From assembly GCA_018818125.1 (NCBI GenBank), contig JAHISQ010000001.1, positions 35,127 to 99,126 of the forward strand: a DNA stretch of 64,000 nt. Reading direction: 5' to 3'. Position 1 is the first letter of the stretch. Each line of letters opens with the position of its first letter. Below, piece by piece: positions 12,844 through 28,887 of this stretch. Made by a program: the position numbers and the translations under genes. Below the pieces are notes generated by a model, which made no database searches, was not told the DNA's origin, and saw only the letters and a program-made list of their open reading frames with translations. Source of the stretch: Candidatus Rifleibacteriota bacterium (GTDB lineage Bacteria; Muiribacteriota; Ozemobacteria; Ozemobacterales; Ozemobacteraceae).

Positions 12844-13109
12844 ATGAAAGATCTCTGCGGCGGTGCATGTCTGATGGCGAAACCGAGGAAGAAGCGCTGG
12901 AAAATGGACAGGATGCGTTTATTTCGTGGGTTTCAGCCAGAATAGATAAAGGAAAAAAGATTCCGGCGCCGACGACAAAACCAGTTGACTATGTTGCGGC
13001 AGATGTTTCCGGGCGCTTTTTGGCCAGACTTCCAAAGTATATTCATGCCAGACTGGTCAAGCGTGCGGAGCGGGAAAGTGTCAGCGTGAGTTGCAGAAGA
13101 GGAATGTGA
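12844..13109 (+). pseudogene. HicB-type antitoxin remnant with internal deletion
   Basis: From 12864 the frame reads CMSDGETEEEALENGQDAFISWVSARIDKGKKIPAP, then GRFLARLPKYIHARLVKRAERESVSV. This is the HicB pattern: partial RNase H-like domain, then an HTH/RHH tail. The usual 25 or so residues before GCMSDGET are gone: ATGAAAGATCTC at 12844 gives MKDL, a HicB-like start, but in another frame, and the reading jumps to the middle of the domain. The C-terminal helix is also lost after SVSV. Just upstream (about 12804-12838) the sequence reads SGRHMLKKMIR-stop, compatible with the tail of a HicA toxin, but that match is weak. I regard this as a dead hicAB locus. Confidence 0.65.
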
Positions 13110-13225
13110 ATCCGAATGACAACTGGACTAAAATCTACAAACATATTGTTTTATGCCGAGATTCGCAAGAAGCTTGCATCATTGGCAGGTTGGAAGTAGT
13201 TTCCTGGCAACAAGTGAGGGTTTAT

Positions 13226-13738
13226 ATGAGATTTGGCACCATAGCGGTTTTAATCAGTTTTCTTTTGTGCTTAACAAATCTTTCCGGGCAGGACATAATA
13301 ACAAAAACGCAGTTCTACGAGCTTGAAGCAGAGACAGAAAATTCAGTCATACAGAATATGCTTGCCAGTGTCTCTGCAAAGGTAGAGGGCAAAATACTTG
13401 GATTAACAGGCCCCGGCACCGTTGATGAAATAACGCAAAAGAATGCGCACCTTGTCCAGATAATCCTGCCAATTAAATTGATTAAATTGATAAAACTAAC
13501 AAGCAGTAAGGAATTGAGCCCAAAAGCCGCTGTTTTTAATATTAAAATAATCGGACCCGACAAGAGTGGCACTTATGCGGCGTTAATGCGATTTTATTAT
13601 TACGAGTATGAGAAAAAAAGGTATGCAACCAGATCAACTCATAAATTCACTGGTAAAAAAATTGAAAACCCAGTAGATCTGGAGGCAATTGAAAAATATA
13701 TCACCAATGCTGTTTACAGATATCCTTTCAAACATTAA
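13226..13738 (+). CDS. hypothetical secreted protein
   Basis: 170 aa starting at the ATG 13226, where a classical signal peptide begins (MRFGTIAVLISFLLCLTNLS); GTGAGG lies upstream. The open frame back to 13091 has no such quality. The mature part carries charged helical sequence and lysine-rich stretches (IKLIKLIKLTSSKE) and a tyrosine-rich strand (RFYYYEYEKKRYATR). I recognise no family. Likely periplasmic or surface exposed. Confidence 0.55.
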   Translation: MRFGTIAVLISFLLCLTNLSGQDIITKTQFYELEAETENSVIQNMLASVSAKVEGKILGLTGPGTVDEITQKNAHLVQIILPIKLIKLIKLTSSKELSPKAAVFNIKIIGPDKSGTYAALMRFYYYEYEKKRYATRSTHKFTGKKIENPVDLEAIEKYITNAVYRYPFKH

Positions 13739-14439
13739 AAATTTGCAGCAAAGGGAAGTTTTCTACAGCAATGGGACAAGAGGCGGATATCCCGGGGTTT
13801 TTTGGGATCTGGGGCGCGGGTTGGTTTTTTTGCCTGCCGGCTATTTCTTCAGGCTTTTGAGGTTGATCGCGCATCTGGTCGAATGGAACCAGGACAAACG
13901 AACTGCGAAGAAAAACCGGAAAGAAAAAATCAGCCAAAAAGCTCTGAGTGGGATCCGGTTCTTGCTAAAGTCGCATGTCACCTTCTATTTTGTAAACAAG
14001 AAGCCAGTCTGGTCTTATGTGCAGTTCCCGATAGCCGAATTATATTCGGCTATCAGTGGGTGGTCTAGATATTTTTCCGGAACAGGCTTTCCTTCAATCA
14101 GCATGGAAAGTATTGGTTCAAGGTAAGAAGAAGCTGCTTTAAAATTTTCGAGGAGCTGAGTTCGAATCAGAGAGTTCGCAGTCGTGGCGACCTGATTTTA
14201 AAAGCGAAAATCAATGAGAAAGGAGAAATTAAGAGCTTTGCTGTATCTGAAATCCAATTGAAGCTAGAGAAACAGGCAAATTTCAGACGCAATTTACTAA
14301 TTTTTCAAAATTTTCTTTCAACCTGGTTCATTAAAATCGAAATTTCAGATTTTTCGGAACGTTTAACAGGCCGAAAACTTCACAATCCCGTCCCCCAAAA
14401 ATAGCAACGCTATTTTTGGGTATTCTCTGCTTTATCCTT
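13739..14439. other. 700-bp region without a convincing gene
   Basis: An open frame (13689-14126) overlaps the preceding gene by 50 bp and has no recognisable features, so I do not call it. The region holds a perfect 11-bp hairpin, GATAGCCGAAT (14030-14040) with ATTCGGCTATC (14044-14054), loop TAT. Around 14160-14300 the sequence is AT-rich and lacks long frames. It may contain decayed genes. Confidence 0.4.
14394..14420. terminator. perfect 12-bp hairpin, probable terminator of the lipoprotein gene
   Basis: CCCAAAAATAGC (14394-14405), loop AAC, GCTATTTTTGGG (14409-14420). It lies 20 bp after the stop of the minus-strand lipoprotein gene (14440). There is no long T run on either side, so efficiency is uncertain. 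Confidence 0.55.
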
Positions 14440-15339
14440 TTACTGAGACTTTTCATTTATAATGTCTTGCATTTTTCTTTGAATATCGTCTTCGGTAACC
14501 TTATAGACAGGAAACTTCCTATTCTCGGGTTTGATATTGTTTTTTTCATAGAGTTCTTCTTGCTGCTTAACCAAGTTGGCATAAAACTCTTTTTGTCTTA
14601 TTATCGCTTCTTCTCTAAGCTTTGCTTTAGCATCTGGTGAAAGAGTTTTTATGTAATCACTTGCCGACATATTCTTTGCCCATTCTATCATGCTGGCTTT
14701 AATCGCACTATTTGCCTTGCCAGCCATGTCGTTCTCATTTGCGTTTGGCGAGCTATCCATAACATTAGTTAGAGTCTTTTTTACATCTTTATTCTCTGGC
14801 AACACTATTTTATTGCTGGACGGAGTAGACACCTCGGTTTTTGGATTTTGATCCACATTTTGTGGGTTAGCTTCTACGAACTCTTGTTTTGCTACAGCTG
14901 ATGGTGACGTATCAGAGTTCTCATTGTTAGAATTGCTGCTCTGAGCTGCTTCTTCTTCCTCTTTGGAGGTCGCTACTGATTGGGTATTCTGTGTGATTTC
15001 CGTTGCTGTGGTGGTTGTGCTGGTTATTTCTTCAGAGTTGGGGTTAACGACTACAACATTGGCCTCATTCGGTTGATTTGCTTCCACAGCGGCAGGAACT
15101 GTGGTGGCGGTGGCAATTGCAGCTGTTTCAGAGGCTACAACATTGTTGTCTGCAGTCTGTTTGTCGCCGCCAAAGATATTTTTAAAGCTATCCACAACAC
15201 CCTTTATTGCTGGCATCGCCTGTTGGATGCCCTGCGCAATATTATTGATTATTTGTGTGATCTGAGTCGCGTCGCACCCAGTCATAAAAATTGAGCTGGT
15301 CAGAAGCATTATAATTACTATTATCTTGAGTGCTTTCAT
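14440..15339 (-). CDS. lipoprotein with Thr/Ser/Asn-rich linker, unknown function
   Basis: 299 aa. N-terminal lipoprotein signal MKALKIIVIIMLLTSSIFMTGC with the lipobox Cys at residue 22. A short helical segment follows (ITQIINNIAQGIQQAMPAIKGVVDSFKNIF in two parts, residues 27-56), then a long disordered Thr/Asn/Ser/Glu-rich linker (about 60-195). The C-terminal region (about 200-299) is charged and helical (SPDAKAKLREEAIIRQKEF, QQEELYEKNNIKPENRKF) and ends in KMQDIINEKSQ, likely coiled coil. I recognise no family. Probably anchored to the inner leaflet of the outer membrane with the helical tail reaching into the periplasm. Confidence 0.6.
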   Translation of the reverse strand: MKALKIIVIIMLLTSSIFMTGCDATQITQIINNIAQGIQQAMPAIKGVVDSFKNIFGGDKQTADNNVVASETAAIATATTVPAAVEANQPNEANVVVVNPNSEEITSTTTTATEITQNTQSVATSKEEEEAAQSSNSNNENSDTSPSAVAKQEFVEANPQNVDQNPKTEVSTPSSNKIVLPENKDVKKTLTNVMDSSPNANENDMAGKANSAIKASMIEWAKNMSASDYIKTLSPDAKAKLREEAIIRQKEFYANLVKQQEELYEKNNIKPENRKFPVYKVTEDDIQRKMQDIINEKSQ

Positions 15340-15654
15340 AAATAAGTCCTTTCAATTGACAATCTATTTTTCCTCGTTGCTAGTTTAACGTTTAACTGGA
15401 AACTAAAGTAACTGAATAAATTTTAACTGTTCACGTGGTTCTGACGCAAGCTTGTTTAAAAACGTTTTCGGGAGTTGGGCAGGTGCGAGGCGGCGAAGCT
15501 GCCGGAGCGTTGACCGGGGCAACAGGACGTGGGTTACGGTTTGGCAGTGTTTTCCCGACTTGTTTTCTCAAAAAAGTTTTCCCCATTTCCCTTTTCAATT
15601 GATTAATTATACGAGAACTAGTTGAAGGTCATAAAAAATCTGGAGTGTTAAAAT
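15340..15654. other. intergenic region with base-paired segments
   Basis: Between divergent genes. It contains the hairpin GGCGGC-GAA-GCTGCC (15489-15503) inside a possible longer helix TCGGGA (15468-15473) with TCCCGA (15553-15558). The stretch 15460-15560 is more GC-rich than its surroundings. It could be an RNA leader of the gene at 15655 or a small RNA; I match it to no family. The promoters of both flanking genes must also lie here. Confidence 0.35.
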
Positions 15655-16521
15655 ATGCGTCTGGTAACCATTTGGGCAATGTTGTGTGTCTTTGTATTGT
15701 TGACAGCGTCAGAAGGAATATGCGCTGAGAGATTTCTTTACATAGTGTCCGGAAAATATCGTTTTGAAATTCATGCTTATGACGAGGCTGGTTTTGAACT
15801 ATACAATCCCAAGGGAAAGCTTACTTTATCAGATAATAAAGCTGTTATTGATATTAAAACCAAGGGTTATCGGCCAACCAGCCTGGAGTTCCCATTAAAT
15901 GAGAATGTTTATTGTTATTACGCCGAAATCGTTCTTCAAAACCCAGCAATTACTCTGGCCCTGGTAGATGAACAATTTAATCCCATCAAGGAATGCGTTT
16001 TCAATGAGGAACCTACAGAGCAATCAACTCTTGAAACCGAATTTGGGTTTACGGGCTATTTTCCGAGAGACGGGTTTAAGAAATTAACCGCACGCAACTT
16101 CCACCTTCATATTAACGGCAAGCATTTATATAATGAACCACCGCAAGTATACCTGTGTTTCTTTAAAGATCTCTGCTATTTTGAAGTGGTAGTCGATCGA
16201 ACCAGATTGGATACCTTAAACAACAATCACTTCGAATTGATCGTCAGGAAGAAACCAAAATCAACCAAGGTCTCAGCAGCATATCTATGTAATCTTGCTG
16301 CGGATTATAGCCGAAACTTTGAGTTAGCAACTGCTGCCAGGAGCAATAAAAGTATTTTACGCCTTCAGAGGCGACTTGAGTCCAATGCTAATCAGCTGAT
16401 TGAGTTTTTTGGCAGCATGGACGCTGGCGAACAAAGAGAAATACTAGGATATCTTTCTGTTGAAGGGGATCTCGCAAGATCGCTCAAAAGCATAATGGCA
16501 TTTGCAGAACTTCACCGCTAA
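15655..16521 (+). CDS. hypothetical secreted protein
   Basis: 288 aa, ATG preceded by GGAG at about 9 nt. Signal peptide (MRLVTIWAMLCVFVLLTASEGICA). The first 130 mature residues are beta-rich (YIVSGKYRFEIHAYDEAGFELYNP, LTLSDNKAVIDIKT), and the last 70 are helical with IEFFGSMDAGEQREILGYLS. No known domain recognised. Exported, probably periplasmic. Confidence 0.55.
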   Translation: MRLVTIWAMLCVFVLLTASEGICAERFLYIVSGKYRFEIHAYDEAGFELYNPKGKLTLSDNKAVIDIKTKGYRPTSLEFPLNENVYCYYAEIVLQNPAITLALVDEQFNPIKECVFNEEPTEQSTLETEFGFTGYFPRDGFKKLTARNFHLHINGKHLYNEPPQVYLCFFKDLCYFEVVVDRTRLDTLNNNHFELIVRKKPKSTKVSAAYLCNLAADYSRNFELATAARSNKSILRLQRRLESNANQLIEFFGSMDAGEQREILGYLSVEGDLARSLKSIMAFAELHR

Positions 16522-16734
16522 AATATCGCAATTAGAATTCCCCATTTTAGAATGATACTTATTTTCAATATCATATGGAAGAACCGAACCTCTGACTTTC
16601 AAGTTTGTTTAACAGAATCTCCTCTTTTGCATGAGCCGAACAGTTGAGTTCTCATCTGCTAACAAAGTTACAAGCTCGTGTGATTGATTAATTTGTTGTG
16701 GCACGCAGGCTGTTTGTAATACCATAGTCAACAG

Positions 16735-17343
16735 ATGACTCAAGCCAGCAGTAACTTACGACCACAAACTTTTCTGACCAGCGCTAATTATCGCGCTGAA
16801 GGGCAGATTTCGCCCCTTTTTGGCTATGCGGTTCTTACGTTATTGTGGGCGGGCAGCTTTGGCCTGATGAGTATCGATATGAAGTTGCCACCACTGCTTG
16901 ACCGGGTTCTTTTCGCCAGTCTGATCACATTTATGGCAGCCAGTGTCGGCTTTTTTCTTTTTCAAAGTTATGATCTTTCGATAACAACTCATTCAGTGAA
17001 GTGGGAAAGCCACATTATTCCGCGCCTTTGGATTGAGCGCTGGGAAGAACCGATTCAGAACTACAAAGGAATTTGCTTGCTGCAAACCACACCGGTGAGC
17101 GATTTCTGGCCCCCCAAATATGTTGCGGCCAGAGTGTTTTACCCAAAACGCATATCCAAAAAACACATGAGTGAGGGCGACCGCAGGTTTAATGCAAGAA
17201 AATTTATCATTGTCTACCTTAAACATTCATGTGATCGCAGCAAAGATGTGTGTCTGAAGAAATTCGATGCAGAAGCTGTCGACGAAGTAAAGAAATACTG
17301 CCTTTATGCCAGCGAAAAACTCAATCTTGTGATAGACAACTGA
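16735..17343 (+). CDS. membrane protein with two transmembrane segments, unknown
   Basis: 202 aa. Two hydrophobic segments (about residues 28-47, LFGYAVLTLLWAGSFGLMSI, and 55-75, VLFASLITFMAASVGFFLF) followed by a soluble domain with SVKWESHIIPRLWIERWEEPIQNYKG. That layout, a short membrane hairpin plus a small beta domain, resembles PH-like membrane proteins, but this is only a guess. No strong ribosome site before the ATG. Confidence 0.5.
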   Translation: MTQASSNLRPQTFLTSANYRAEGQISPLFGYAVLTLLWAGSFGLMSIDMKLPPLLDRVLFASLITFMAASVGFFLFQSYDLSITTHSVKWESHIIPRLWIERWEEPIQNYKGICLLQTTPVSDFWPPKYVAARVFYPKRISKKHMSEGDRRFNARKFIIVYLKHSCDRSKDVCLKKFDAEAVDEVKKYCLYASEKLNLVIDN

Positions 17344-17377
17344 TCGTCTTAGGCACCCCCTTTCAAGGAGACTCAAA

Positions 17378-18433
17378 ATGAAAAGAATCATAGCAATTCT
17401 ATTTGCCATTTTTCTCAGCGTTACCGCTTCTGCTGAATCAAAAAATCCTGGCAACCGCTACATGGAAGAATACAAAAAATATTTGACTGCCCAATGCCCA
17501 ATTGAAAGCGATAACATCAAGAATTTTGTCTACTTTGCCCGCGATAGAGAAGCAATTCAGGAACATCCTTTCTTAAAATACCCAAGATTCGAAGGTGCAC
17601 AAATAATGTATTCCTGGAAAGAATTGGAACCATCTGAAGGGCACTACGATTTTGCCATCATCAAGGATGACTATGATTACTTAAAATTGAAAGGTAAGAA
17701 GCTATTTATTCAGTTGCAGGACGCCACATTCAATCCAGATTACTATGGAGTTCCGGATTTCTTGAGAACAGCAAAATTTGATGATGGAGCTATTTATCAG
17801 CGTGATGACAATGGCAAACCCGAGGGCTGGACAGCCAAGCGCTGGAACAAAAATGTTCGAGAAAGTTTCGCAAAGCTGCTTAATGCTCTCGGCAAAGAAT
17901 TTGACGGGAAAATTGAGGGGATAAACTTACAGGAGTCTGCCATCGGAGTCACCAGCGAATACGATAAATCGTTTTCTCCATCTATTTATGTGGAATCCCT
18001 GAAAGAAAATATGCTGGCCTTAAAGACAGCTTTTCCCCATTCTATTACTATGCAATACGCCAATTTCATGCCCGGAGAATGGTTGCCATGGGAAGATAAA
18101 GGATATTTAAAGGCAATTTATGAATATGGGGAAAAAATTGGAGTTGGCTTAGGTGCGCCCGACTTGATGATACGCAAAAAAGGCCAGCTAAACCATGCTC
18201 TGGCAATGATGCATGAGCACAACTACAGTGTGCCACTGGGAATAGCGGTACAGGATGGCAATTATCTGGGGCTAACAGACTCCAATCTCATAAAAAAAGA
18301 TCGAGAAAACATAGTTCCGATGTTGCATGCCTTTGCCAAGGAATTTCTGAAAGTTCAATACATTTTCTGGGTAAACCAGGAGCCATACTTTGAAGAAGAT
18401 GTTTTACCCTGTTTTATCTCACACGATAAGTAG
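17378..18433 (+). CDS. secreted TIM-barrel glycoside-hydrolase-like protein
   Basis: 351 aa, AAGGAGA 7-8 nt before ATG 17378. Signal peptide (MKRIIAILFAIFLSVTASA). The mature chain reads like a (beta/alpha)8 glycosidase: MYSWKELEPSEGHYDF (about residues 70-85) is the strand-2/3 pattern of GH-A clan enzymes. LFIQLQDATFN, GINLQESAIG (a strand-4-like Glu at about residue 187) and IFWVNQEPYFEEDVLP near the C-terminus (a strand-7-like Glu) follow. Substrate unknown; the two glutamates are at plausible catalytic positions but this is inference. Follows the membrane protein by 35 bp. Confidence 0.6.
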   Translation: MKRIIAILFAIFLSVTASAESKNPGNRYMEEYKKYLTAQCPIESDNIKNFVYFARDREAIQEHPFLKYPRFEGAQIMYSWKELEPSEGHYDFAIIKDDYDYLKLKGKKLFIQLQDATFNPDYYGVPDFLRTAKFDDGAIYQRDDNGKPEGWTAKRWNKNVRESFAKLLNALGKEFDGKIEGINLQESAIGVTSEYDKSFSPSIYVESLKENMLALKTAFPHSITMQYANFMPGEWLPWEDKGYLKAIYEYGEKIGVGLGAPDLMIRKKGQLNHALAMMHEHNYSVPLGIAVQDGNYLGLTDSNLIKKDRENIVPMLHAFAKEFLKVQYIFWVNQEPYFEEDVLPCFISHDK

Positions 18434-18507
18434 CGAATTTTCTAAAATTGGTTTGTGTCGTCTGTGATACTATTTTGTAAATAGCATTTTGCCCTTGAGG
18501 AAACCTG

Positions 18508-19599
18508 ATGAATGTGGCTGACAATCCCGAGTTGTGTGGGCTGATTGCCGTTGTTTTTGTCGTAGTGTTTATCTGGGCAAACCGCTGCTCAAAATGCGGA
18601 AAGCTTTTCACTACAAAGATCAGAAGTCGCACCAAAACCTCAGAAGGATACAGTCATTCCTGGGAAGTTGATGATAAGACGCAGCGGGCAAAAAGTGTTC
18701 GCAGCTACCGCTACAACTATAACGAAACCTACGCTTGCAGCAAATGTGGCCATGAATACAGCACTTCGACGTCGAGTCCGCGGGATCTTTCCTGCGGTTA
18801 CTTTCTTTCCGAAGAATCTGGCAAGGCTAAGGCGAGGGGATGCTTTAACCCGCTGACCTGGTGGAGCTGGATTCCCGGTAAAAAGTTCTTGCTGACGCTG
18901 GTTTTCTTGTTTTTTGTCGGCCTGGTTGTTTTTGACTACGAGGTTTTATGGTATCCAACCCATCTAGAGACCTATCTGGACAACTATATTGAATATCTCG
19001 AAGATCCTTTTTCGCCCAGGGAAAACTGGCGGACCCAGCTTGAGGTTAAAGAAGGGCACTGGCAGACCCGCCGCTATATCCAGGAATATCAGGAAGTAGA
19101 GAGAGAAAACTGGGAAGAATACGTGCCAGAATCTGCAAAGATTATGGAAAAATCCACAAAAGACCGGCCAATGGAGGCGAATCCATACAGCATTAACAGT
19201 CTTGGCGGCCCAAAACCAGGCATCTGGGTTAAATATTTGACTGATCAATGGGTAACGATTGAGACTTTGACGGCCTCCGGTACTGGATTGCCGATTGTCT
19301 ACCCCGGAGAAATCGTTACTGCGCCCGGTGAAAGCCAATATGGCGCGCGCAAGTCTGATTATACTTCTGTAAGTTTTTCTCTAACTTTTAGAGAGACTTC
19401 AAATGGCAGTTTAATCTCAACCGACAGTGTCGGCTACATCAGCATTCGTGATCTTGATAATACTTACCCGCGCGAAATAAGCGAGAACATATACAAGTTT
19501 TTTATGCAGAATACCGGTCTGTTGAAAGCCAGAATTAAACAATATAGTTTCAATTCAACCCCCAAAGTATATATCTACGTCGAAGAACCACTTTACTGA
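18508..19599 (+). CDS. membrane-anchored zinc-ribbon protein
   Basis: 363 aa, GAGGAAA 6 nt before the ATG. An N-terminal transmembrane helix (about residues 9-24) runs into a pair of CxxC motifs (CSKCGKLF about 31-38 and CSKCGHEY about 80-87) forming a probable zinc ribbon. A second membrane segment follows (FLLTLVFLFFVGLVVFDYEVLW, about 130-150 in two parts), then a soluble C-terminal region with ENWRTQLEVKEGHWQTRRY and Tyr-rich strands. No family recognised. It is the last gene before the large structured RNA, which starts about 100 bp downstream; the AT-rich tract and promoter between them make the RNA an independent transcript. Confidence 0.55.
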   Translation: MNVADNPELCGLIAVVFVVVFIWANRCSKCGKLFTTKIRSRTKTSEGYSHSWEVDDKTQRAKSVRSYRYNYNETYACSKCGHEYSTSTSSPRDLSCGYFLSEESGKAKARGCFNPLTWWSWIPGKKFLLTLVFLFFVGLVVFDYEVLWYPTHLETYLDNYIEYLEDPFSPRENWRTQLEVKEGHWQTRRYIQEYQEVERENWEEYVPESAKIMEKSTKDRPMEANPYSINSLGGPKPGIWVKYLTDQWVTIETLTASGTGLPIVYPGEIVTAPGESQYGARKSDYTSVSFSLTFRETSNGSLISTDSVGYISIRDLDNTYPREISENIYKFFMQNTGLLKARIKQYSFNSTPKVYIYVEEPLY

Positions 19600-19636
19600 G
19601 TAGTTGTAATTCTTTGTTGATCGATGTTTGTCAGTG

Positions 19637-19690
19637 TAAAAAAAATATTTAAAAATAAATGTTGACATCAAATCCGTTTCGCGATAAACT
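19637..19690 (+). promoter_or_regulatory. strong rRNA-like promoter with UP-element-like AT tract
   Basis: TTGACA (19662-19667), a 17-bp spacer and TAAACT (19685-19690) make a near-consensus sigma-70 promoter. Directly upstream (about 19637-19660) is an uninterrupted run of A and T bases resembling an UP element. The predicted start, about 19697, falls at the first base of the outer helix of the large RNA. The set-up is like that of rRNA operons. Confidence 0.8.
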
Positions 19691-19696
19691 AGGAAA

Positions 19697-20797
19697 GTTG
19701 AACGAACAGATCTTTGAAAATTGAAAAATAGAATCGGTGGCCGCAAGGCTGATGCTTCTGAGCTCCGGCAGGTTTCAGGCAGTTATCTCAAGATGGGTGC
19801 TGATGTCTGGTGACAGGCAAAACAACCCTGAAGGGAACAAATAACCTCGGGTAACGTGAAACTTAAGAAGAAGTATGAGTTGGAAGGCAAAAATTCCATG
19901 GGGGGAGGACTCCGCATCGACGGAGAAACCAACTACAGCAGCAGAAAAACTCTAAGAGGGCCTCAAACCCTGTAAGAGGAAGGATTTATCCAGGGCTGTT
20001 GTAGCCAGATACCCCGAAGGACAAAAGGTCATGAGAGTTGTAATCGCGATGCCGGGGTGAAACTTGGCAGCGTAGGAGACGCTCTGAACCGGGAGTAAAG
20101 CTTCAAGGTTTGACTGAATCTCAAGATGGGAACCAGCTGCTTGCAGCAGGGGGCCAGTTAGAGCCAGGGTCGGGTAGAACGTAAGTTCAGCGGCCAGGTA
20201 GTGGGAACTGCCAGTGATTTCTGGAAGAAAACCATGTAGAGACAGTAACAGCGTAGGAGCATGATAGCTGGAAACAGTTATCGATCGGATCAGTGTAAGA
20301 CTCTGTAGATCAAGACCCTGCAAGTGCCAGTGGGGTGGAACAAACCCACAAGCTACCAAGGACGAAGTTCTGCTGAGAGGTTGAGAAAACCTGAGAGCGG
20401 AATGCGATAGGGCCGGAATCCTATCTGTCACGTCCTAGTTGTGAAGGCGCTAAGAGGGAAGAAACCTAGGAAGGCGTTGGCTTTATCCAGCCAATGAAGG
20501 TGTGTGTTGAACCTTGAAGTCGGCAGAAGCCCAGAAGAGGATAGAAAGACTCGGTTAACTCCAGTCCGGTGATTGTATCGACGGCCTCGAAGGCGATGAA
20601 CGTCTGAGGCTTGGCGTAACCAAATATGCGTCATAGTGCAATTGCGTTAAAACTCTAGAAGGTATGTAACGACATGAAGGGGTGATCAGAAGCGGTGACG
20701 CGACTGATTAATCACTCACTGACAGGTCTTCAAGAAGGAAAACCGATTCTAATTTGTTCGTTCAATAAAAAACCCCCGGTTAAACGGGGGTTTTTTC
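19697..20797 (+). ncRNA. large (about 1.1 kb) ornate structured noncoding RNA, family unassigned
   Basis: No sensible plus-strand reading frame exists here. The ends pair: TTGAACGAAC (19698-19707) with GTTCGTTCAA (20756-20765), and TAGAATCGGT (19729-19738) with ACCGATTCTA (20742-20751). Both are perfect 10-bp helices spanning about 1 kb. Between the two 5' strands is GATCTTTGAAAATTG, like the boxA leader of rRNA operons. Internal hairpins that I can pair by hand: GCC-GCAA-GGC (19740), CTCCG/CGGAG (19910-19925), GGCT/AGCC (19994-20006), ACCCCG/CGGGGT (20011/20053), AGCGT/ACGCT (20069-20083), GAAC-GTAA-GTTC (20177-20188), GATAGCTG-GAAA-CAGTTATC (20263-20282), GTGGG/CCCAC (20330-20349), AGGTT/AACCT (20378-20392), GATAGG/CCTATC (20406-20425), TTGGCT/AGCCAA (20477-20494). 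It ends in a perfect terminator. Size, end-pairing and GNRA loops recall OLE, GOLLD and ROOL RNAs; I see no feature that fixes it to one of them. Confidence 0.85.
20767..20797 (+). terminator. rho-independent terminator of the large RNA
   Basis: AAAAAACCCCCG (20767-20778), loop GTTAAA, CGGGGGTTTTTT (20785-20796): a perfect 12-bp stem followed by T-rich sequence. The A tract makes it potentially bidirectional, so it could also end the minus-strand gene at 20863. Confidence 0.93.
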
Positions 20798-20862
20798 TAT
20801 TTCCGCGTATTCGAAGTCAAAAGCAGTTTTGCTGTATTATTCGAGCCCAAGCACGGAAATCT

Positions 20863-21057
20863 TCAGTCCTCAAGGTCGACCGAAACGTAGTCACCCTCCT
20901 GGAGATCACGATTTTTGAATTTTTCGCATGGCACATATATTTCCATCATTGCTTCAGGATCTTCCGGGTGCCTGATCACGACAACGACGATGCCAGCAGT
21001 GATACGATCTACAACCCCTCTTACCCGCCTTTTCTTTTTTGTTTCGCGGCCTCTCAT
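20863..21057 (-). CDS. small DUF3006-like protein
   Basis: 64 aa, GGGAGG 7 nt before the ATG on the minus strand. A basic start (MRGRETKKKRRVRG) leads into GVVDRITAGIVVVVIRHPEDP and EGDYVSVDLED, the pattern of the small beta-barrel DUF3006 family (VVDR-- ... EGD-v-vdl). The function of that family is not known. It converges on the terminator of the large RNA, 65 bp away. A frameshifted relative lies at 34.9 kb, so it is part of a small paralogous family in this genome. The basic N-terminus could suit nucleic-acid binding, which is speculation. Confidence 0.7.
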   Translation of the reverse strand: MRGRETKKKRRVRGVVDRITAGIVVVVIRHPEDPEAMMEIYVPCEKFKNRDLQEGDYVSVDLED

Positions 21058-21227
21058 GGTGTTTCCTCCCTGTCTTCTCTATATTAATTCTAATGATTTT
21101 TGGTCAAGGTGTCGTTGAGCCTGAACGCTTAAAGCTGATTTGCAATACAAGCTTCTTTACCTTAGCTCCTCTATCTGGTATAGTGCCTCAGTACAACAAT
21201 GACAGCAGCCACAGGGGGAGGTTCCCG

Positions 21228-21512
21228 GTGAACAACAACAAGGAACAGGTCGTGATTACCGTACTCGGTGCCAACAATCCCGGTATTCTTGCCGGTATTA
21301 CCCGCACCATTGCCGATTCAAACGTTAATGTAGAAGATGTCAGCCAGAAGATCATGCAGGATCTGTTTGCTCTGATGATGATGACAGACTTTTCTTCAGC
21401 TAACTGTAGCTTTGAGGAATTTCAAAATCGCATGCAGGCGATGGCCGATCAGCTACGCGTCAAAGTTTTTATACAACATGAAGATGTATTCAGGTATCAG
21501 CATCGACTTTGA
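21228..21512 (+). CDS. ACT-domain protein (UPF0237 family)
   Basis: 94 aa from GTG 21228, chosen for the strong AGGGGGAGG ribosome site 7 nt upstream; the frame is open back to 21039 but without family similarity. The whole protein is one ACT domain: VVITVLGANNPGILAGITRTIADSNVNVEDVSQKI. UPF0237 proteins are small cytosolic regulators, likely binding an amino acid or similar ligand. In many bacteria the gene is directly followed by a UPF0210 gene, as it is here (55 bp), which supports both calls. Confidence 0.92.
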   Translation: MNNNKEQVVITVLGANNPGILAGITRTIADSNVNVEDVSQKIMQDLFALMMMTDFSSANCSFEEFQNRMQAMADQLRVKVFIQHEDVFRYQHRL

Positions 21513-21567
21513 TGCTTGATGGCCGCCGCCCATGCTGGCGCGCGGATTGAACCGATGGAGGCAATAA

Positions 21568-22929
21568 ATGCTTTTTTCGCTCGAAGAAGTCATCGAAACC
21601 ATCAGCGCCGTAGGTGTCGAAACCTTTGATGTCCGCACGATTTCGTGTGGTATTAACATCCTGAGCTGTGCTGATTCAGACGTTCATAAATGTGCCGAAA
21701 AAGTTTACGAAAAGGTGGTTAGAGTCGCTCGCGATCTAGTGCCGACTGCTCGCACCCTTGAAAAGAAATTCGGTATTCCTATTGTTAACAAGCGTATCTC
21801 GGTAACGCCAGTTTCTCTGCTTGCAAATGCTTTTACCGAACCAACTGCGGTGCCTATTGCCGCAGCAATGGATAAAGCCGCCAAAGAACTAGGTGTCGAC
21901 TATATCGCTGGATTTGGTGCGCTTGTGCAGAAAGGCTTTACGCGCGGCGACCAGATTCTGATTAATTCAATCCCTGATGCTCTTTGTACTACTGATCGAG
22001 TCTGCTCAAGCGTCAATATTGGCAGTTCCCAGGCTGGTATCAACATGGATGGCGTTTATCGCATGGCAGAAATCGTAAAGGAAGCTGCTGAGCGTTCACG
22101 CGACACAAACGGTCTGGCCTGCGCCAAGCTGGTAGTTTTTTGCAACGCCGTCGAAGATAATCCCTTTATCGCGGGTTCATTTCTTGGCGTCGGTGAAGCT
22201 GAAGCCATTCTTAACGTCGGCCTTTCGGGCCCTGGCGTGGTAAGAGCTGCGCTCGAACGTGCCGGTAACCTGTCTTTTGGTGAGCTTTCCGAGCTTATCA
22301 AAAAAGTCAGCTTTAAAATTACCCGCACCGGCGAATTGATCGGACGTGAAGCTTCCCGTATTATGGGTATTCCGTTTGGCATTATCGACCTGTCTCTCGC
22401 ACCAACCCCGGCTAAAGGCGATTCAATTTCTGATATTCTTGAACTCATGGGCCTCGAACGTACTGGCTGCCACGGCACTACCGCTGCGCTCGCCATGCTC
22501 AATGATGCCGTTAAAAAAGGCGGCATGATGGCGGCAACCTATGCTGGCGGCCTGAGTGGCGCTTTTATTCCGGTTACCGAAGACGATGGCATGTGTCGAG
22601 CTATTGTCGATGGCGCCTTGAATATTCAAAAACTCGAAGCCATGACCTGCGTATGCTCAGTTGGGCTCGATATGGTCGCAATTCCCGGCGATACTTCGAT
22701 CGATGTTATCGCCGGCATTATCGCCGATGAGGCCGCAATCGGCATGATCAACCACAAGACCACCGCCTGTCGCCTGATTCCGGTACCTGGCATGAAAGCC
22801 GGTGATATCGTAGATTTTGGCGGTTTGCTCGGCAAAGGTCCGGTAATGGAAGTCGGCCGCTTCTCACCTTCGGTGTTTGTGCGCCGTGGCGGCCGTATAC
22901 CGGCTCCGGTTCACAGCATGAAAAATTGA
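21568..22929 (+). CDS. UPF0210/DUF711-family protein
   Basis: 453 aa, the family length; the GATGGAGG-type ribosome site is about 9 nt before ATG 21568. Typical stretches: FDVRTISCGINILSCAD at residues 18-35, VDYIAGFGALVQKGFT, SINIGSSQAGINMDGV-like SVNIGSSQAGINMDGV, and MGIPFGIIDLSLAPTPAKGDSI. DUF711 proteins have a fold related to anaerobic ribonucleotide reductase/pyruvate formate-lyase barrels, but their reaction is unknown. It is paired with the ACT-domain gene upstream, presumably its regulatory subunit, and the transcript ends at the hairpin at 22985. Confidence 0.93.
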   Translation: MLFSLEEVIETISAVGVETFDVRTISCGINILSCADSDVHKCAEKVYEKVVRVARDLVPTARTLEKKFGIPIVNKRISVTPVSLLANAFTEPTAVPIAAAMDKAAKELGVDYIAGFGALVQKGFTRGDQILINSIPDALCTTDRVCSSVNIGSSQAGINMDGVYRMAEIVKEAAERSRDTNGLACAKLVVFCNAVEDNPFIAGSFLGVGEAEAILNVGLSGPGVVRAALERAGNLSFGELSELIKKVSFKITRTGELIGREASRIMGIPFGIIDLSLAPTPAKGDSISDILELMGLERTGCHGTTAALAMLNDAVKKGGMMAATYAGGLSGAFIPVTEDDGMCRAIVDGALNIQKLEAMTCVCSVGLDMVAIPGDTSIDVIAGIIADEAAIGMINHKTTACRLIPVPGMKAGDIVDFGGLLGKGPVMEVGRFSPSVFVRRGGRIPAPVHSMKN

Positions 22930-22984
22930 GTCAAATGTCATTGCTCGGAATGACGCGGCAATCTCGATGACTGTGTGATACCCG

Positions 22985-23017
22985 GCCCTGAAAGCTTAAC
23001 ACGCTTTCAGGGCTTTT
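22985..23017 (+). terminator. rho-independent terminator after the UPF0210 gene
   Basis: GCCCTGAAAGC (22985-22995), loop TTAACAC, GCTTTCAGGGC (23003-23013), then TTTT. Perfect 11-bp stem. Confidence 0.9.
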
Positions 23018-23057
23018 CAATAGAGGCCAGATACCCGATTGGTTTTAATAATATAAA

Positions 23058-25991
23058 ATGCAGACTGACAAGGAAAAGGCACTAAGACTGGCAATCTCTG
23101 CTGTTTTTGCTATTCTGATATTTCTGCCGCTTGTGTTTGTCTGTTCAGATCTTGCCAGGCTCGCTACGCTCAAATACGAGCATCAGCTCACGACCCTCGA
23201 ACAACAGCTCAAAGTCGAACTTGGCTCATTCAGAGAAAACCTGATTCCAAGGTTTTACCTTGAAAATCTCATCAAAGCCAGCGAAACCCATATTGGTCTG
23301 ACTGCCGAGACGCACCAGCGTCCTGTTTTTGCGCGTGGCGTCGATCCGCAACTGATAACTGCAAATACCATCAGCCAGCTTCGCCAGTTTTATAAGGATA
23401 AAGCAGGGATTGAGCCCTTAATGGTATTGGCTTTTGGTGTTGACTACGAAAAAATCTGGTCGTGGTTCCGCGACGACTTCCCTAACCTGGTCAGTGATGA
23501 GAAGAGCAGAATTGAGATTCTACTGGCCTGTTTTGCATCTAATTTTCAAGCGTTTACACCGGTAATTGCAGGGAACTCTTTTGATGTCCGCCTCAAAGAA
23601 CTGATTAGTGACGATGGTAGGGAGCTACAACGGTTTTATCGAGATATTTTTTATGATTATTTCTCTGACATGACCTATGTACCACTACATCAAGGTTCTG
23701 CATATGATATGGCCATTAAAAGATACAACAGTCGCTTGCTTTTTGCTTACAACCGCGTGATTAAAGACGGTAATATGGTTTTTGGCGGCTATTTCGTGGT
23801 TTTCACCAGCAATCAGCTCAAAATTGCCAACCTTCTCGCTGCTGCCCGTGTTCCTCTGAACCAGACTTTTGTGCGCAGTTATCCGGCACAGACTGAGGGT
23901 GCAATAAACCAGATTCAGGTCGTCGATGACTACATGTTTTTGAGTTCACTGATTCCGACTGAGCTGGCTGGCTATAACACATTGGCACCAGTTCCGCAGA
24001 AACTGCCGCGCTATATGGCTGTTTCAGCGCCTATTCATGATTTAAAGGGAAACTACCGGCGAACTCTGTGCCTGCTCGCATCTGTCGTGCGCCTTGTCGT
24101 TCTGGCGATTTTAGCCATGTCGGTGTATTTCGTTCTTTTCGGGTTTCCACCAGTTTTCAGACTACGCGCGCGCATGCTGGCAGCCATGGCGATTGTCCTG
24201 TTGCTTCCCTATGTGATTCTTGGCTATTTTTGTCTCACCATTCTCGATAATATTCAGGGGCTTTCTGAGCACGAACTTCGCGTTGAAGCGAACGGTCTGA
24301 TGTACAGATTACAGAGCTATTATACTGACCAGAAATTGCAGATTATGCTGCAATTGCTTAAAGCCAAAGCTCGGCTGATCAAGTCCGTAGATGATGATCC
24401 AGACAGTATCATGCGGCTGCCATCGCATGATATTCTGCCGCCAGCCAGCCTTATTGATCTGAATTTCTTTCGCGATGATGGTATCACAAGAGGGATTCAC
24501 AACAGGCATAGAGAATCAACCGATTCTTCAAGTGTTTATAGTTATATGTCAGTAAAATATCTCGATAATCTGGGCGTTCTGGACAAACAGCGTTCGAAAG
24601 TAAGAAGCCTGCTCGAACAATCCATGTTTGCCGACGGTATGATGGAATCCATTCGTCAGAACTATGCCGAACATTACTCTCTGGTTAACGAAGCCTTTGA
24701 AACCAAAGACCTGGCAAAAATGGACGATTTTTCGCGCATGTTCTATTACCTGATCCCGACTGTAAAAAGGCCCGGAAACCCGGTTCGTGTTCTGGTAATG
24801 AGTAATGTCAATGATTCCGACTACATACTTATCAAACCTTATGAATTTTTGCCAGGAATGTTCTCACAAACCACAACGCTGGGTCAGCATGAATTTGCCA
24901 TGGGGCAGCGCCGTATTGATGATATGATTTTGCGCTGGTGGCCGATTTCTATCAGCCTTGACTCCAGGATTAAAAGGCTTCTGCTGATTGCTGCCGGCAA
25001 TCGCGAGAACGGTTTTCAGTCAGAGCAGAAAAATCAAATATCCACTTACCAGCAATATCGTTTTAACAAAAACGAACCGATTGTGTTTGCCGGAATTTCA
25101 ACGGCTTCACCAGATCAGCTGCTGAAATTTTTTGTGCAGGGTTTTCCATTTTTGCTGTTGGTTATAGCTCTGATTAGCCTGTTTTTGTCTGGTGACATAC
25201 TTGCCGCACTCTTTATTGCTCCTGTTAGAGGCTTTCATAAGGCTACCCGGCAGATAGGTGCCGGTAACTACCAGCTGGCGGTAAACATCGAAAAAACCGA
25301 CGAGTTCTCCCTGCTTGCCGACTCTTTTAACCGCATGGCACTTGGTCTGGCGCAGCGCGAAAAGATGCGGCGTTTTGTTTCTGAGAATCTATATGAACAG
25401 CTGGGCAGTCAGATAACCGATACCGCTCCCCGTGTGTCACAGGTTACCCTGCTGGCCAGTGATATTCGCAGCTTTACCACGCTTAGCGAAAAATATGAAC
25501 CGCAGCAGATTGTCAGTCTGCTCAACGACTATTTTACCGAAATGGAAACTGCGATAACCTCCTGCGGTGGCTTTATTGAGCGCCTGGTTGGTGATGCGGT
25601 GGTGGCGGTTTTTTATCAGGAAGCAACTAACAGCAGTGAACAGCGTGCGGCGCAGGCGGCGCTGCGCATGCGCGCGCGCCTTGTCCGCCTCAACCAGGAG
25701 CGTGCCGAATCCGGTTTGTTTACAATTGAAAATGGCATAGGTATAGCCACTGGTCAGGCGTTCTCAGGTATGGCCGGCGAAGAATCCGGTCGCCGCGTGT
25801 TTTCGGTTATTGGCGAAGTAGCCAGGCTTGCCGAGAAGCTCGAAGCCGCCAGCAGGTTTGTGAACTCGCGGATCCTGCTCTGTCCGCAGTCAGCAGCGGC
25901 TCTGGATAAGAATTTCAAAGTAATCACTGCCAGCGAAAAATGTGACTTTGTCGCGCTAGAACTGGTTTCTTGCGAGGTCGATCATGTCTGA
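23058..25991 (+). CDS. membrane sensor with HAMP and class III cyclase domain (metal-binding half)
   Basis: 977 aa. TM1 at about residues 12-32, a large extracytoplasmic region, two central TM segments (about 345-395), a second extracytoplasmic region, a TM at about 695-720, a HAMP domain (about 720-770) and a C-terminal class III nucleotidyl cyclase domain (about 790-960). Both metal-binding aspartates are present (LLASDIRSF and RLVGDAVVAVF). The transition-state Asn-Arg pair is not: where the family has GDTVNLAARLE, this protein has GEVARLAEKLE. The adenine-site Lys is Arg. It should therefore be inactive as a homodimer. The next gene overlaps by 8 bp and has the missing residues. Expected product cAMP; no Shine-Dalgarno site is visible before the ATG. 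Confidence 0.85.
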   Translation: MQTDKEKALRLAISAVFAILIFLPLVFVCSDLARLATLKYEHQLTTLEQQLKVELGSFRENLIPRFYLENLIKASETHIGLTAETHQRPVFARGVDPQLITANTISQLRQFYKDKAGIEPLMVLAFGVDYEKIWSWFRDDFPNLVSDEKSRIEILLACFASNFQAFTPVIAGNSFDVRLKELISDDGRELQRFYRDIFYDYFSDMTYVPLHQGSAYDMAIKRYNSRLLFAYNRVIKDGNMVFGGYFVVFTSNQLKIANLLAAARVPLNQTFVRSYPAQTEGAINQIQVVDDYMFLSSLIPTELAGYNTLAPVPQKLPRYMAVSAPIHDLKGNYRRTLCLLASVVRLVVLAILAMSVYFVLFGFPPVFRLRARMLAAMAIVLLLPYVILGYFCLTILDNIQGLSEHELRVEANGLMYRLQSYYTDQKLQIMLQLLKAKARLIKSVDDDPDSIMRLPSHDILPPASLIDLNFFRDDGITRGIHNRHRESTDSSSVYSYMSVKYLDNLGVLDKQRSKVRSLLEQSMFADGMMESIRQNYAEHYSLVNEAFETKDLAKMDDFSRMFYYLIPTVKRPGNPVRVLVMSNVNDSDYILIKPYEFLPGMFSQTTTLGQHEFAMGQRRIDDMILRWWPISISLDSRIKRLLLIAAGNRENGFQSEQKNQISTYQQYRFNKNEPIVFAGISTASPDQLLKFFVQGFPFLLLVIALISLFLSGDILAALFIAPVRGFHKATRQIGAGNYQLAVNIEKTDEFSLLADSFNRMALGLAQREKMRRFVSENLYEQLGSQITDTAPRVSQVTLLASDIRSFTTLSEKYEPQQIVSLLNDYFTEMETAITSCGGFIERLVGDAVVAVFYQEATNSSEQRAAQAALRMRARLVRLNQERAESGLFTIENGIGIATGQAFSGMAGEESGRRVFSVIGEVARLAEKLEAASRFVNSRILLCPQSAAALDKNFKVITASEKCDFVALELVSCEVDHV

Positions 25992-28887
25992 GCAGAATAT
26001 TGTAATCAGACGTCGGGTCAGTGCAGTCACTCTGCTGGCAACCTGGGTCATGGTTTTCATTCTTCCCGCTTTCCTTGTCTATCTGAGTTTAGATTATCTG
26101 TTCAATCTGACTCTGATTGCAGGAAAACGCGCGGCTACCGCCAGCATGACTAACGAAATGGACAGTTTCCGGCGCGATCTTGAAATGACCAGCTTTCTGC
26201 AGCGCCAGCTCGAAAATTACTTTGCCGGCCTGACAATGGTGCCTGACTGGCAAAATCCGGGGGATGCCATGAACAGGCTGACTTCAGCGACTGGTTTGCA
26301 TCCAGTCGGTCTGATCACCCATTCTGCTGATACTCTTGAGATTGACTATCACATGGAAGGCGTTCTGGCATCTGAGGTCAAAACCCTTTCGCGCAATTTG
26401 ATGCGGCGCTATCTGGTTACGCTCAATCAACAGCACACCCACCATTTTCACAGCTCACAGGCCGAGGCTTCAACCCAGGCATTGTTTCGCTTCGTTGATC
26501 CGACCAGAGCCAAAAAAGATGCCGATCTGTTTTTTCGTCGAATTTTCGGGCTGATCAGCGAAGTGCCGATTCTGCCACTGCGTGTCACCAAATCAATTTC
26601 TTCACGTCTCGGCGGTGCAGTATATTTTTATTATCACCCATTTATCAGCGTAAAAGCTGGTGAAAGACTGATAACAGGTGGACAGCTCCTTATTTTGCGT
26701 GGTTCCGACATTCCGTGGGAAAAGGCGGCGCGCTCAGCTACCTGCAATGCTTCGACTGGCATGCAGCGAAGTTTTGCAGCTTTCGAACATTCAATGTGGG
26801 AAAGCGGGCAAAGTCTGCAGGAAATAGCCACCAGGTTTTACGAAGACAAAACTGGTTACCATTTTGTTTCTACTCTGTCGCAGTGTAGTCTCGTCGATCT
26901 GATTCAGGGCGGTTCGCTGATTCCATACCGGCTACAGCAGGTTGTCACAAAAATGCCACTGCTTAAGGTTTCGATGCCCTGGTCAGAGCTGCAGCACCCG
27001 TTGCTGCCATGGTTGAAACACATAATTTTTGCGCTCAGACTATATATGTTGTTTGGCGCTTTGCTGGTGCTGCGTTTTTTCTTTTTCGGCATTGAGTTTC
27101 GAGCTGGTATTGGTGCCAAGGTAGTAATCGGAACTGTCTTTATTCTGCTGCTGCCAATTACTCTTCTGGTTGTCGGGTTTGTTACCTGGCAGCAGTTTCA
27201 CCAGGTTTATGACTGGTATGAAGCCGAAACCAGACATCAACAGGTTTTTGCTGATTTCAGTAACAGATTTAATGCTTATCTGGCAACTTTGCAGCAACAG
27301 ACATTTGATCTTTCCGTTGCCACAAAAAAGCTTTGTTTGCGCAACGACAAAAATGATTTCGGCGATCTTTTTGCCAACTGGCTAAAAACCTCGATTGCTG
27401 TTGATATTTCCTTAGATAGACCGTTAAAAGAGTCTATAAAAGTAAAATCAACAACTCAGCATAGCCCTGAACTGCCGGAAGAGGAATCAACCAGAAGACT
27501 TTCTGCCTCCTTGATTATTAACGCTTTTGATGCTGCCGACAACTTTAATAAAGTGTTTAACGATAGTGATAAGAGGAGCATAAATTCAGTTGAACCCAGT
27601 TTTATCAACGAAATGATTGCACGCTGGGGAAAGCTTTATATGTTCTCCAGCTTTAATATTGGCAGTCGTTTTTCGTCAGTTTATATCCACAAGCCCGGCA
27701 AAAACAGCCCAATGGCTATTCTAACTCTCAAATTCAACAACGAGACCATTCTGCGCGATTTTGTCACTCGCAGTTTCAAGTTGTTCAACAACTTTGCCGA
27801 TATCGACTGTCAGTATTTTTTGATTCGAAAAGATTCAGGGGCATTGCGTTTTTACAATCTGTCTGATGAAAGTGAAATAGTCGATCCCAGACAGATTGCA
27901 CGCTTAAATCTGGCAGTTACTTCCGGGCAATGCACGCATCGCCTTAATAATCGGGATCTTGTGCATTATTTTGCGATGAGTGAGTATCCTCTGGTTCTTT
28001 TTGCTCGCAGCAATAATGTTGCCGGCCGGCACGCTAACCCATGGTTTATCTCTCTGTTGATGCTTTATGCTCTGCTGCTGCTGCTGTTTATTTTTCTAGT
28101 GTTCATGCTGATTTATCTGCGACCGATCCGTGAGTTTATCAGGGTAACCGAAGCGGTGGCGGCCGGAGACTATCAACAGAAGGTTGCATTGACGCAGACT
28201 GACGAATTCGGCGATCTAAAAACCACCTTTGACGAAATGATTCAAGGCCTTGAACAGCGGCGCCGCCTTTCACATTTCGTTTCGAGCGAAGTAATAAAGG
28301 CCGTCGAGTCTGATTCAGAAGAGAGCATGGCAGTTGGCGGCGAGCGTATCGAAGCCACTGTTACCTTTGTGCAGCTCGAAAAACTGCAGCATTTTGCTTC
28401 TGATGCAACGGCCGAAGAGATTTTTGCGATTCTCGACGAATTTATCGCCGTTGCAGATAACTGCGCCAGTCTGCACGGTGGTGTTGTCGATAAACTCATC
28501 GAAGACACCCTGATGCTGGTATTCAGAGCCAGTCCTGAACGCCAGGACCATGCAGTTGCAGCCAGCACTGCCGTGCTTTCACTTGCTGAAATTATGCGGT
28601 CTCGTGGTCTGCGCATCTGCGCCGGCATTGCCAGCGGTATTGTTGTCTCAGGCCGTATTGGCTCACGTCTCGGCAAACTGGATTTTACCGTTATCGGCGA
28701 CACGGTTAACCTTGCTGCTCGTCTCAAAGCTGAAGCCAAAAAGGCTGTTAACACCGGCATCATCATCTCGCCCGGCGCTATCCGCATTTTAAAAGGTCGC
28801 GCCCGCGTAACCTTTATCGAACGCACCGAGATTAAGGGAAAGAGCCGCGAATACCCGCTCTACGAACTCACCGCCTTGCGTCAGTAA
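25984..28887 (+). CDS. membrane sensor with HAMP and class III cyclase domain (substrate/transition-state half)
   Basis: 967 aa, the same architecture as its upstream neighbour (TM1 about 15-37, central TM pair about 345-400, TM about 685-710, HAMP about 710-760, cyclase about 785-955). The first metal Asp is lost (TFVQLEKLQHF in place of FADIxGF). The second Asp (KLIEDTLMLVF), the adenine-site Lys, and the Asp-Thr and Asn-Arg of VIGDTVNLAARLK are all kept. Its start lies inside the end of the preceding gene (ATGTCTGA, 8-bp overlap), so the two are translationally coupled. The pair repeats the division of labour of the C1 and C2 halves of mammalian adenylyl cyclase. Confidence 0.85.
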   Translation: MSEQNIVIRRRVSAVTLLATWVMVFILPAFLVYLSLDYLFNLTLIAGKRAATASMTNEMDSFRRDLEMTSFLQRQLENYFAGLTMVPDWQNPGDAMNRLTSATGLHPVGLITHSADTLEIDYHMEGVLASEVKTLSRNLMRRYLVTLNQQHTHHFHSSQAEASTQALFRFVDPTRAKKDADLFFRRIFGLISEVPILPLRVTKSISSRLGGAVYFYYHPFISVKAGERLITGGQLLILRGSDIPWEKAARSATCNASTGMQRSFAAFEHSMWESGQSLQEIATRFYEDKTGYHFVSTLSQCSLVDLIQGGSLIPYRLQQVVTKMPLLKVSMPWSELQHPLLPWLKHIIFALRLYMLFGALLVLRFFFFGIEFRAGIGAKVVIGTVFILLLPITLLVVGFVTWQQFHQVYDWYEAETRHQQVFADFSNRFNAYLATLQQQTFDLSVATKKLCLRNDKNDFGDLFANWLKTSIAVDISLDRPLKESIKVKSTTQHSPELPEEESTRRLSASLIINAFDAADNFNKVFNDSDKRSINSVEPSFINEMIARWGKLYMFSSFNIGSRFSSVYIHKPGKNSPMAILTLKFNNETILRDFVTRSFKLFNNFADIDCQYFLIRKDSGALRFYNLSDESEIVDPRQIARLNLAVTSGQCTHRLNNRDLVHYFAMSEYPLVLFARSNNVAGRHANPWFISLLMLYALLLLLFIFLVFMLIYLRPIREFIRVTEAVAAGDYQQKVALTQTDEFGDLKTTFDEMIQGLEQRRRLSHFVSSEVIKAVESDSEESMAVGGERIEATVTFVQLEKLQHFASDATAEEIFAILDEFIAVADNCASLHGGVVDKLIEDTLMLVFRASPERQDHAVAASTAVLSLAEIMRSRGLRICAGIASGIVVSGRIGSRLGKLDFTVIGDTVNLAARLKAEAKKAVNTGIIISPGAIRILKGRARVTFIERTEIKGKSREYPLYELTALRQ

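Follow-up and report, generated by a model that had tools for sequence, protein, structure and literature searches.

A 64,000-nucleotide stretch of DNA from a Candidatus Rifleibacteriota bacterium, hereafter the window, carries on its plus strand a predicted large noncoding RNA whose class is new, although the loose descriptive group of 'large ornate RNA' was already known. We consider it probable that this is a stand-alone gene, that its transcription is rRNA-like, and that its product is likely the structural core of an RNA or RNA-protein particle. The predicted RNA, which is supported by homologs and covariation, occupies positions 19697..20766 (about 1,070 nt). Both of its ends are predicted; the 5′ end was set a few nucleotides past the −10 box and the 3′ end ahead of the terminator stem. 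This length is about 70% of that of 16S rRNA, and we know of few bacterial noncoding RNAs besides rRNA that come near one kilobase.

Gene limits and distribution

The host genome bin comprises 196 contigs and 6.06 Mb and is 94.6% complete. The RNA gene is flanked by the gene of a 363-aa protein with no Pfam family (18508-19599) and by a 64-aa minus-strand ORF (20863-21057), and the roughly 1.26 kb between them is without an open frame of stable length in the homologs. A first-pass annotation of this DNA had described 19697..20797 as free of plus-strand coding, and indeed no plus-strand ORF of at least 60 aa lies wholly within that interval; one plus-strand ORF (20695-21087) runs into the 3′ end of the RNA. 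On the minus strand, ORFs of 159 and 68 aa fall within the RNA region, and a third, of 63 aa, overlaps its 5′ end. When frame lengths alone are compared, the longest stop-to-stop frames vary widely among the homologs, from 47 to 198 codons in sense and from 109 to 316 codons in antisense. Downstream of the RNA, at 21228-22929 of the window, stand genes for an ACT-domain protein and then a DUF711 protein, an arrangement kept in several genomes of the same genus.

A BLAST search of 95 genomes gave matches to the RNA in 23, every one among the 24 genomes of family f1 (the host genome included), and in none of the other 71. Matches were nearly full length in the closest relatives and shorter further out, and in the 24th f1 genome, G022, contig edges carry fragments of both RNA ends. 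For covariance models (R1 to R3) we used a branched domain at 20322..20452, which is mostly missing in G014. Model R1 has 132 positions and was built from 23 sequences, leaving out L050 (most of the domain missing) and L052 (cut by a contig end). Across 39 Riflebacteria genomes it matched 25, namely 22 of 24 in f1 and all three in family f5, with none of 12 genomes in six other families; the two f1 genomes that it missed are G014, where the domain is missing, and G022. There was one match in 23 of the 25 genomes, two in G009 and three in G021, and a run over 381 genomes under stricter filters gave the same 25 and nothing else. The copy in G014 (L050, G014:C69:241-1202) keeps the rest of the RNA, with the domain of 20322-20452 reduced to 34 nt. 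The two copies in G009 (L038 and L040, on contigs C7 and C8) are diverged paralogs within one genome, one of which shares its neighbourhood with the copy in G016.

Model R2, in which f5 sequences were included, returned the same 25 genomes in the Riflebacteria phylum plus a weak second match in G007 (E 0.8). Over 380 genomes it added a single one, G216, from another phylum, with an E value of 2.7e-4 for one genome, so that about 0.1 such matches are expected by chance over the set. The G216 locus is a 1,066-nt stretch whose fold is closed by about 23 pairs, 11 of which form an exact inverted repeat; its fold energy lies 10.6 sd below that of 20 mononucleotide shuffles, and it shares a 44-nt match of 80% identity with the window RNA. 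Two minus-strand ORFs, of 106 and 62 aa, overlap the stretch. Model R3, with G216 included, was run on five genomes of that phylum and matched two, adding G381 with two diverged copies (E 1.8e-4 and 2.7e-4). These copies, L186 and L187, measure 1,093 and 1,101 nt between end arms chosen by eye; the arms are of 9 and 12 bp with one G-U each, and a T-run follows directly. Free folding closes L187 by the arms chosen by eye and gives L186 other outermost pairs.

RNA lengths are thus 962-1238 nt in f1, 1115-1121 nt in f5, and 1066 and 1093-1101 nt in the second phylum. In each f5 RNA a long helix, of 15 bp when L169 is folded, joins start and end, and the genes have both a terminator and a promoter with TTGACA. 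Used as a BLAST query at E ≤ 0.01, an f5 RNA matched 10 of the 39 genomes: the three of f5, and seven in which 30-48 nt matched; in G016 and G023 these stretches fall inside the known RNA. At three further short matches (L175, L177 and L178) no RNA was seen by eye, and a Pseudonocardiales candidate from a scan with a degenerate hairpin motif (L070) bore no further resemblance by eye and is taken as a chance match. An open-access literature search over titles and the starts of abstracts found no paper on this RNA.

Conserved structure and recurring loops

RNAalifold was given 24 f1 sequences (L052 was dropped) with a mean pairwise identity of 62% and a minimum of 47%, and the resulting consensus has 278 pairs at −469.6 kcal/mol. 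Under our own tree-based null with 400 simulations, 80 of the 278 pairs covary at p ≤ 0.01 and 120 at p ≤ 0.05. When partners were slid by 2, 3 or 5 columns (100 simulations each), 0-2 pairs reached p ≤ 0.01 and 1-6 reached p ≤ 0.05. Covariation across homologs, which the first-pass annotation had named as a test of a structured RNA, therefore exceeds the controls (80 of 278 pairs against 0-2 when slid). Refolding six simulated and three column-shuffled alignments gave energies of −105 to −249 and 0-5 covarying pairs, and the real structure had 60 of 278 covarying pairs in that run. An all-against-all G-test over the 24 sequences returned just one pair at E ≤ 0.05; consequently, the case for covariation depends on testing a structure that itself came from the alignment used to test it. 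Among the unpaired columns, scanning for additional helices or pseudoknots gave no excess over simulated data.

In the domain used for the covariance models, standard pairs make up 95.9-96.5% of the cells, and in 23-27 of 33 pairs both partners vary; none of 500 shuffles reaches the real values, and slid versions pair at 35-45%. The five rows from f5 and the second phylum were aligned with the help of the structure (the f5 rows are in R2 and R3, G216 is in R3, and the two G381 rows are in no model), and in them 27-32 of 30-33 pairs are standard, with 8-16 changed on both sides relative to the window. When the f1 structure is placed on f5 by plain alignment, 63% of pairs are standard, versus 30-45% when slid. 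Because base pairs are kept through paired mutations in two phyla, we predict that the sequence encodes a large folded RNA with a conserved structure whose pairing is maintained in both.

The consensus has 19 hairpin loops, in keeping with the initial description of a highly structured RNA with many internal hairpins. That description also held that several carry GNRA loops, and three hairpins do keep GNRA in 19-23 of 24 sequences: those at 19809..19814 (loop 19810-19813; 23 of 24), 20270..20275 (loop 20271-20274; 19 of 24) and 20694..20699 (loop 20695-20698; 22 of 24), all on the plus strand. In addition, 81 of the 121 nearly invariant unpaired positions are A. These two properties, and the presence of the RNA in two phyla, are what a new large ribozyme might look like, with A-rich joints and GNRA contacts forming a catalytic core that acts on another RNA. 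However, no substrate, split host gene or self-cleavage site is visible, and L050 lacks most of the domain at 20322-20452, which the other phylum retains, yet has the remainder of the RNA; so this domain, if no other, is not an indispensable core. We regard a ribozyme as unlikely.

The consensus also holds nine 3×3 internal loops, and the pattern ANG/GNA is found in 149 of 213 loop cells. The best conserved, on the plus strand at 20515..20677 (strands 20516-20518 and 20674-20676), fits in all 24 sequences. For the remaining plus-strand loops, denoted by their 5′ closing base, the pattern is found in 23 of 23 sequences at 20030, 22 of 24 at 19953, 20 of 24 at 20104, 18 of 24 at 20122, 17 of 24 at 19897, 11 of 23 at 20319, 8 of 23 at 20374 and 6 of 24 at 20532; that is, six loops fit in at least 17 sequences and three in under half. 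Minimum free energy folds of five homologs from outside f1 have ANG/GNA in 12 of 34 3×3 loops, and the controls have it in none of 36 loops in 30 shuffled-sequence folds and not in the one loop of a 16S fold. No named motif known to us has precisely this pattern; a related one is UAA/GAN.

Promoter, end helices and a boxA-like element

Directly 5′ of the −35 box lies an A+T-rich stretch (19638..19660, plus strand) that resembles an UP element; an f5 homolog has a very similar stretch, AAATATTTTAAAATAAATGTTGACAT, ahead of its TTGACA. The promoter is of sigma-70 type (TTGACA-17-TAAACT, 19662..19690, plus strand) and matches 10 of 12 consensus bases. Taken alone this match is weak, since the region holds three promoter-like sites where 1.6 are expected. 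Among the homologs, 22 of 24 have TTGACA or TTGACT and a second hexamer that ends 6-9 nt 5′ of the RNA start. A boxA-like element, GATCTTTGAAAA, follows at 19709..19720 (plus strand), and all 24 homologs have it within two mismatches, with its start 9-25 nt from the 5′ end of the RNA. The window contains a single exact copy, and with at most one mismatch there are five matches against 2.3 expected. Because the statistics of promoter and boxA are weak taken alone, it is their conservation that carries the argument. Signals of strong expression had been proposed for this gene at the outset, and they are present in the form of this promoter and the conserved boxA-like element. Together with the several gene copies in one genus, they would be compatible with the initial suggestion that this RNA may rank among the most abundant of the cell.

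The ends of the RNA were said to be joined by two perfect 10-bp helices, and both are indeed perfect. The outer one pairs the leader arm at 19698..19707 (TTGAACGAAC) with the trailer arm at 20756..20765 (GTTCGTTCAA), and the inner one pairs 19729..19738 (TAGAATCGGT) with 20742..20751 (ACCGATTCTA), all on the plus strand; four of the ten inner pairs covary at p ≤ 0.01. Read by hand, the inner end helix shows exact inverted repeats of at least 9 bp in 19 of the 25 sequences, the outer one in 10 of 25, and the letters of the helices differ between genera (for example, AGCGAACTGGT; GTGTTGAGTGG). The outer helix stands outside the 278-pair consensus because the ends align poorly. An intrinsic terminator on the plus strand at 20767..20796 follows, with a 12-bp stem (AAAAAACCCCCG/CGGGGGTTTTTT) and a T-run. 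A consensus scanner did not list 20767-20796, so this terminator was read from the sequence; like the end helices and the promoter, it lies where the first-pass annotation had placed it. Three f5 RNAs end in similar terminators. The promoter thus comes first, followed by the outer helix, the boxA-like element, the inner helix and the terminator.

The 16S leader of a relative, G002, contains a boxA-like GATATTTGAGAA with one mismatch; the 16S leader of G021 contains GTTATTTGAGAA, a weaker candidate with two mismatches that was found by eye and is unlisted by the pattern search. Three full 16S loci were inspected, and a leader was found in two and none in the third. The f5 RNAs have a weaker boxA in which TTTGACAA is kept, and a boxA pattern search of the G216 and G381 RNAs gave no match. 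A search for 16S (RF00177) found it in 4 of 24 family genomes and found none in the window's own genome, a search that was positive in just 9 of 14 control genomes; a missing 16S is a usual gap in metagenome bins.

For pre-16S rRNA, PMC10250234 describes boxA as both required for and enough to form the antitermination complex, and calls the leader-trailer helix essential. The present gene likewise has a boxA-like element in its leader, and its leader and trailer can pair around the mature RNA; because its sequence layout matches those descriptions, we read the gene as likely an rRNA-type transcription unit. It differs from pre-16S rRNA in lacking an Rfam rRNA match, in having its own intrinsic terminator, and in that the boxA-like element sits between the outer and inner end helices. 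One study argues that Nus factors at rRNA serve mainly for something other than antitermination (PMC4807359), and for that reason boxA may serve either antitermination or folding here. boxA is also described for a natural CRISPR array, where GTTCTTTAAAA is carried on a long untranslated transcript (PMC7862264). The element of homolog L050, GTTCTTTAACAA, is close to that of the array; unlike boxA-led arrays, the present gene specifies a single folded RNA and not repeats and spacers.

Neighbourhoods, known classes and a possible particle

Neighbour genes are conserved within a genus, and the flanks in f5 differ again; no neighbour gene is common to all 25 loci, with the window represented by its stretch 12001-29000, and none stands out as encoding a protein partner. 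A long protein gene of cluster c0, outer-membrane-like by eye, lies upstream in eight loci, in one of which (L036) another gene stands between it and the RNA. In four loci (L034, L043, L045 and L047) the c0 gene is preceded by a gene for what we take to be a XerC/XerD-like recombinase. Neither gene is present in window stretch 12001-29000, which argues against a constant partner; this neighbourhood, seen in several genera, is perhaps the ancestral location of the RNA.

A different arrangement is seen in the rumen genus g11 (G018, G021, G022 and G023). In G018 and G021 the 3′ end of the RNA, with the terminator, recurs downstream of genes, at loci L048, L102, L103, L108, L109, L110 and L111. 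The recurring piece comprises at least the last 46 nt of the RNA and the terminator, and the genes that such 3′ ends adjoin encode RelB and PIN, ParE, a type II restriction pair, patatin and two uncharacterised proteins. Read by hand, 20 g11 3′ ends divide into eight that follow an RNA body, nine that follow other sequence and three at a contig edge. In L110 a 238-aa gene lies between RNA body and 3′ end, and in L102 the same gene lies between two 3′ ends, at a contig edge. L109 runs from a 3′ end at a contig edge through RelB, PIN and patatin to another 3′ end. In L108, a ParE toxin gene precedes a first 3′ end, which is separated from the next by genes for a methyltransferase and a restriction enzyme of type II. 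Cassette genes recur across different genomes. The arrangement looks as if genes had been inserted at the 3′ end of a structural-RNA gene, or as if it were an integron-like array.

This recurrence of 3′ end and terminator near cassette genes shared between genomes raises the idea of a mobile or gene-capture system, in which cassettes insert at the 3′ end of the RNA gene and the RNA helps or rides along. Several results argue against it. A search with 120 nt detected no 3′-end repeat next to the RNA, either in the window or at the other 20 non-g11 loci, apart from one 16-nt match in L039, and is of low sensitivity because it also missed a degenerate second copy in L048. None of eight scanned cassette-region proteins is a recombinase, the phage and plasmid collections contain no match to the RNA, and one exact pattern had zero matches in viral contigs. 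Moreover, where DNA inserts at tRNA and tmRNA genes, the RNA itself plays no part. We consider this explanation of the RNA quite improbable.

The Rfam collection includes models for OLE (RF01071), GOLLD and ROOL. At curated cut-offs no Rfam family matched anywhere in the window, and at E ≤ 10 the region 19500-20900 gave 26 matches, all to short models, nearly all around the terminator, and none to OLE, GOLLD or ROOL. The first-pass annotation had left the family unassigned and suggested either a diverged or enlarged member of these three classes or a new class; the search bears out the unassigned status and favours the second alternative, the first having found no match. Four further origins, namely a cis-acting leader, the remnant of a group II intron, a piece of rRNA and a protein gene in decay, are suggested by nothing more than the intergenic position of the RNA. 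Such origins are scarcely credible given that the gene has its own promoter and terminator, that the genes downstream vary between genera, that there is no Rfam intron or rRNA match and no open frame of stable length, and that the structure covaries. A group II intron was rejected on the lack of an Rfam match and of a reverse transcriptase among six Pfam-scanned window neighbours, and identity with ribosomal RNA on the lack of any match to an rRNA model in Rfam.

GOLLD is found in phages or beside tRNAs; in the present case the window lacks tRNA genes, the phage collection gave no hit, and the one exact pattern had no match in viral contigs. What GOLLD, ROOL and OLE share with the present RNA is a general character: they are large, ornate and noncoding, with elaborate covarying structure and poorly understood function, as PMC12286853 portrays them. 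On that likeness the RNA could be a much diverged or enlarged relative of one of them. We regard this as very unlikely, given the lack of a curated Rfam match in the window and of all three among the 26 weak matches, the missing tRNA and phage links, and the negative loop test described below. The RNA also differs from them in other ways: of about 1.07 kb, it is found in Riflebacteria and one small other phylum, and it has an rRNA-like boxA and leader-trailer helix and repeated ANG/GNA loops. OLE is described as about 600 nt long and as occurring in Gram-positive extremophiles or anaerobes (PMC9723947, PMC12054373), in contrast to a predicted 1,070 nt or so in a Riflebacteria host. Covarying palindromic kissing loops are reported for OLE and GOLLD (PMC12286853); in the 19 hairpin loops of the present consensus we found no varying palindromes, in a test that covers symmetric hairpin contacts. 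The raiA motif, or ModT RNA, is also a structured RNA conserved over many species (PMC11706538) and is reported to be monomeric (PMC12286853); unlike it, the present RNA has no Rfam family at cut-off. The known large classes have been described as unusual objects, RNA nanocages in the case of ROOL and GOLLD and a membrane RNP with Oap proteins in that of OLE.

Our preferred reading, an rRNA-like transcribed gene for the core of a particle, suggests the following mechanism. RNA polymerase would start near 19697, and the boxA-like element would recruit Nus factors, by which the long untranslated transcript may be kept going; the Rho step of this proposal would weaken if, as PMC4807359 argues, antitermination is not the main role of these factors at rRNA. 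Leader and trailer would then pair around the finished RNA, and a nuclease that cuts double strands would likely trim them. The body would fold into a compact object by way of its GNRA loops, its A-rich joints and the recurring 3×3 loops; at these 3×3 loops, multiple copies of a single protein, or else further parts of the RNA, may dock. More speculatively, and with more doubt than belief, we envisage a ribosome-style particle outside translation: the rRNA pathway, with its strong promoter, boxA and leader-trailer closure, would have been borrowed, up to nine loop modules would each dock the same protein or a sister RNA and so build a large repetitive complex, and the multicopy genes of the rumen genus would be docking points for defence and toxin-antitoxin cassettes.

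The RNA is found in nearly all examined genomes of the family, extends to a second phylum and has expression signals of the rRNA type. Its repeated ANG/GNA loop leads to a testable idea, that one RNA binds many copies of one partner, and its boxA and leader-trailer layout makes it possible to ask whether rRNA biogenesis factors serve other large RNAs.
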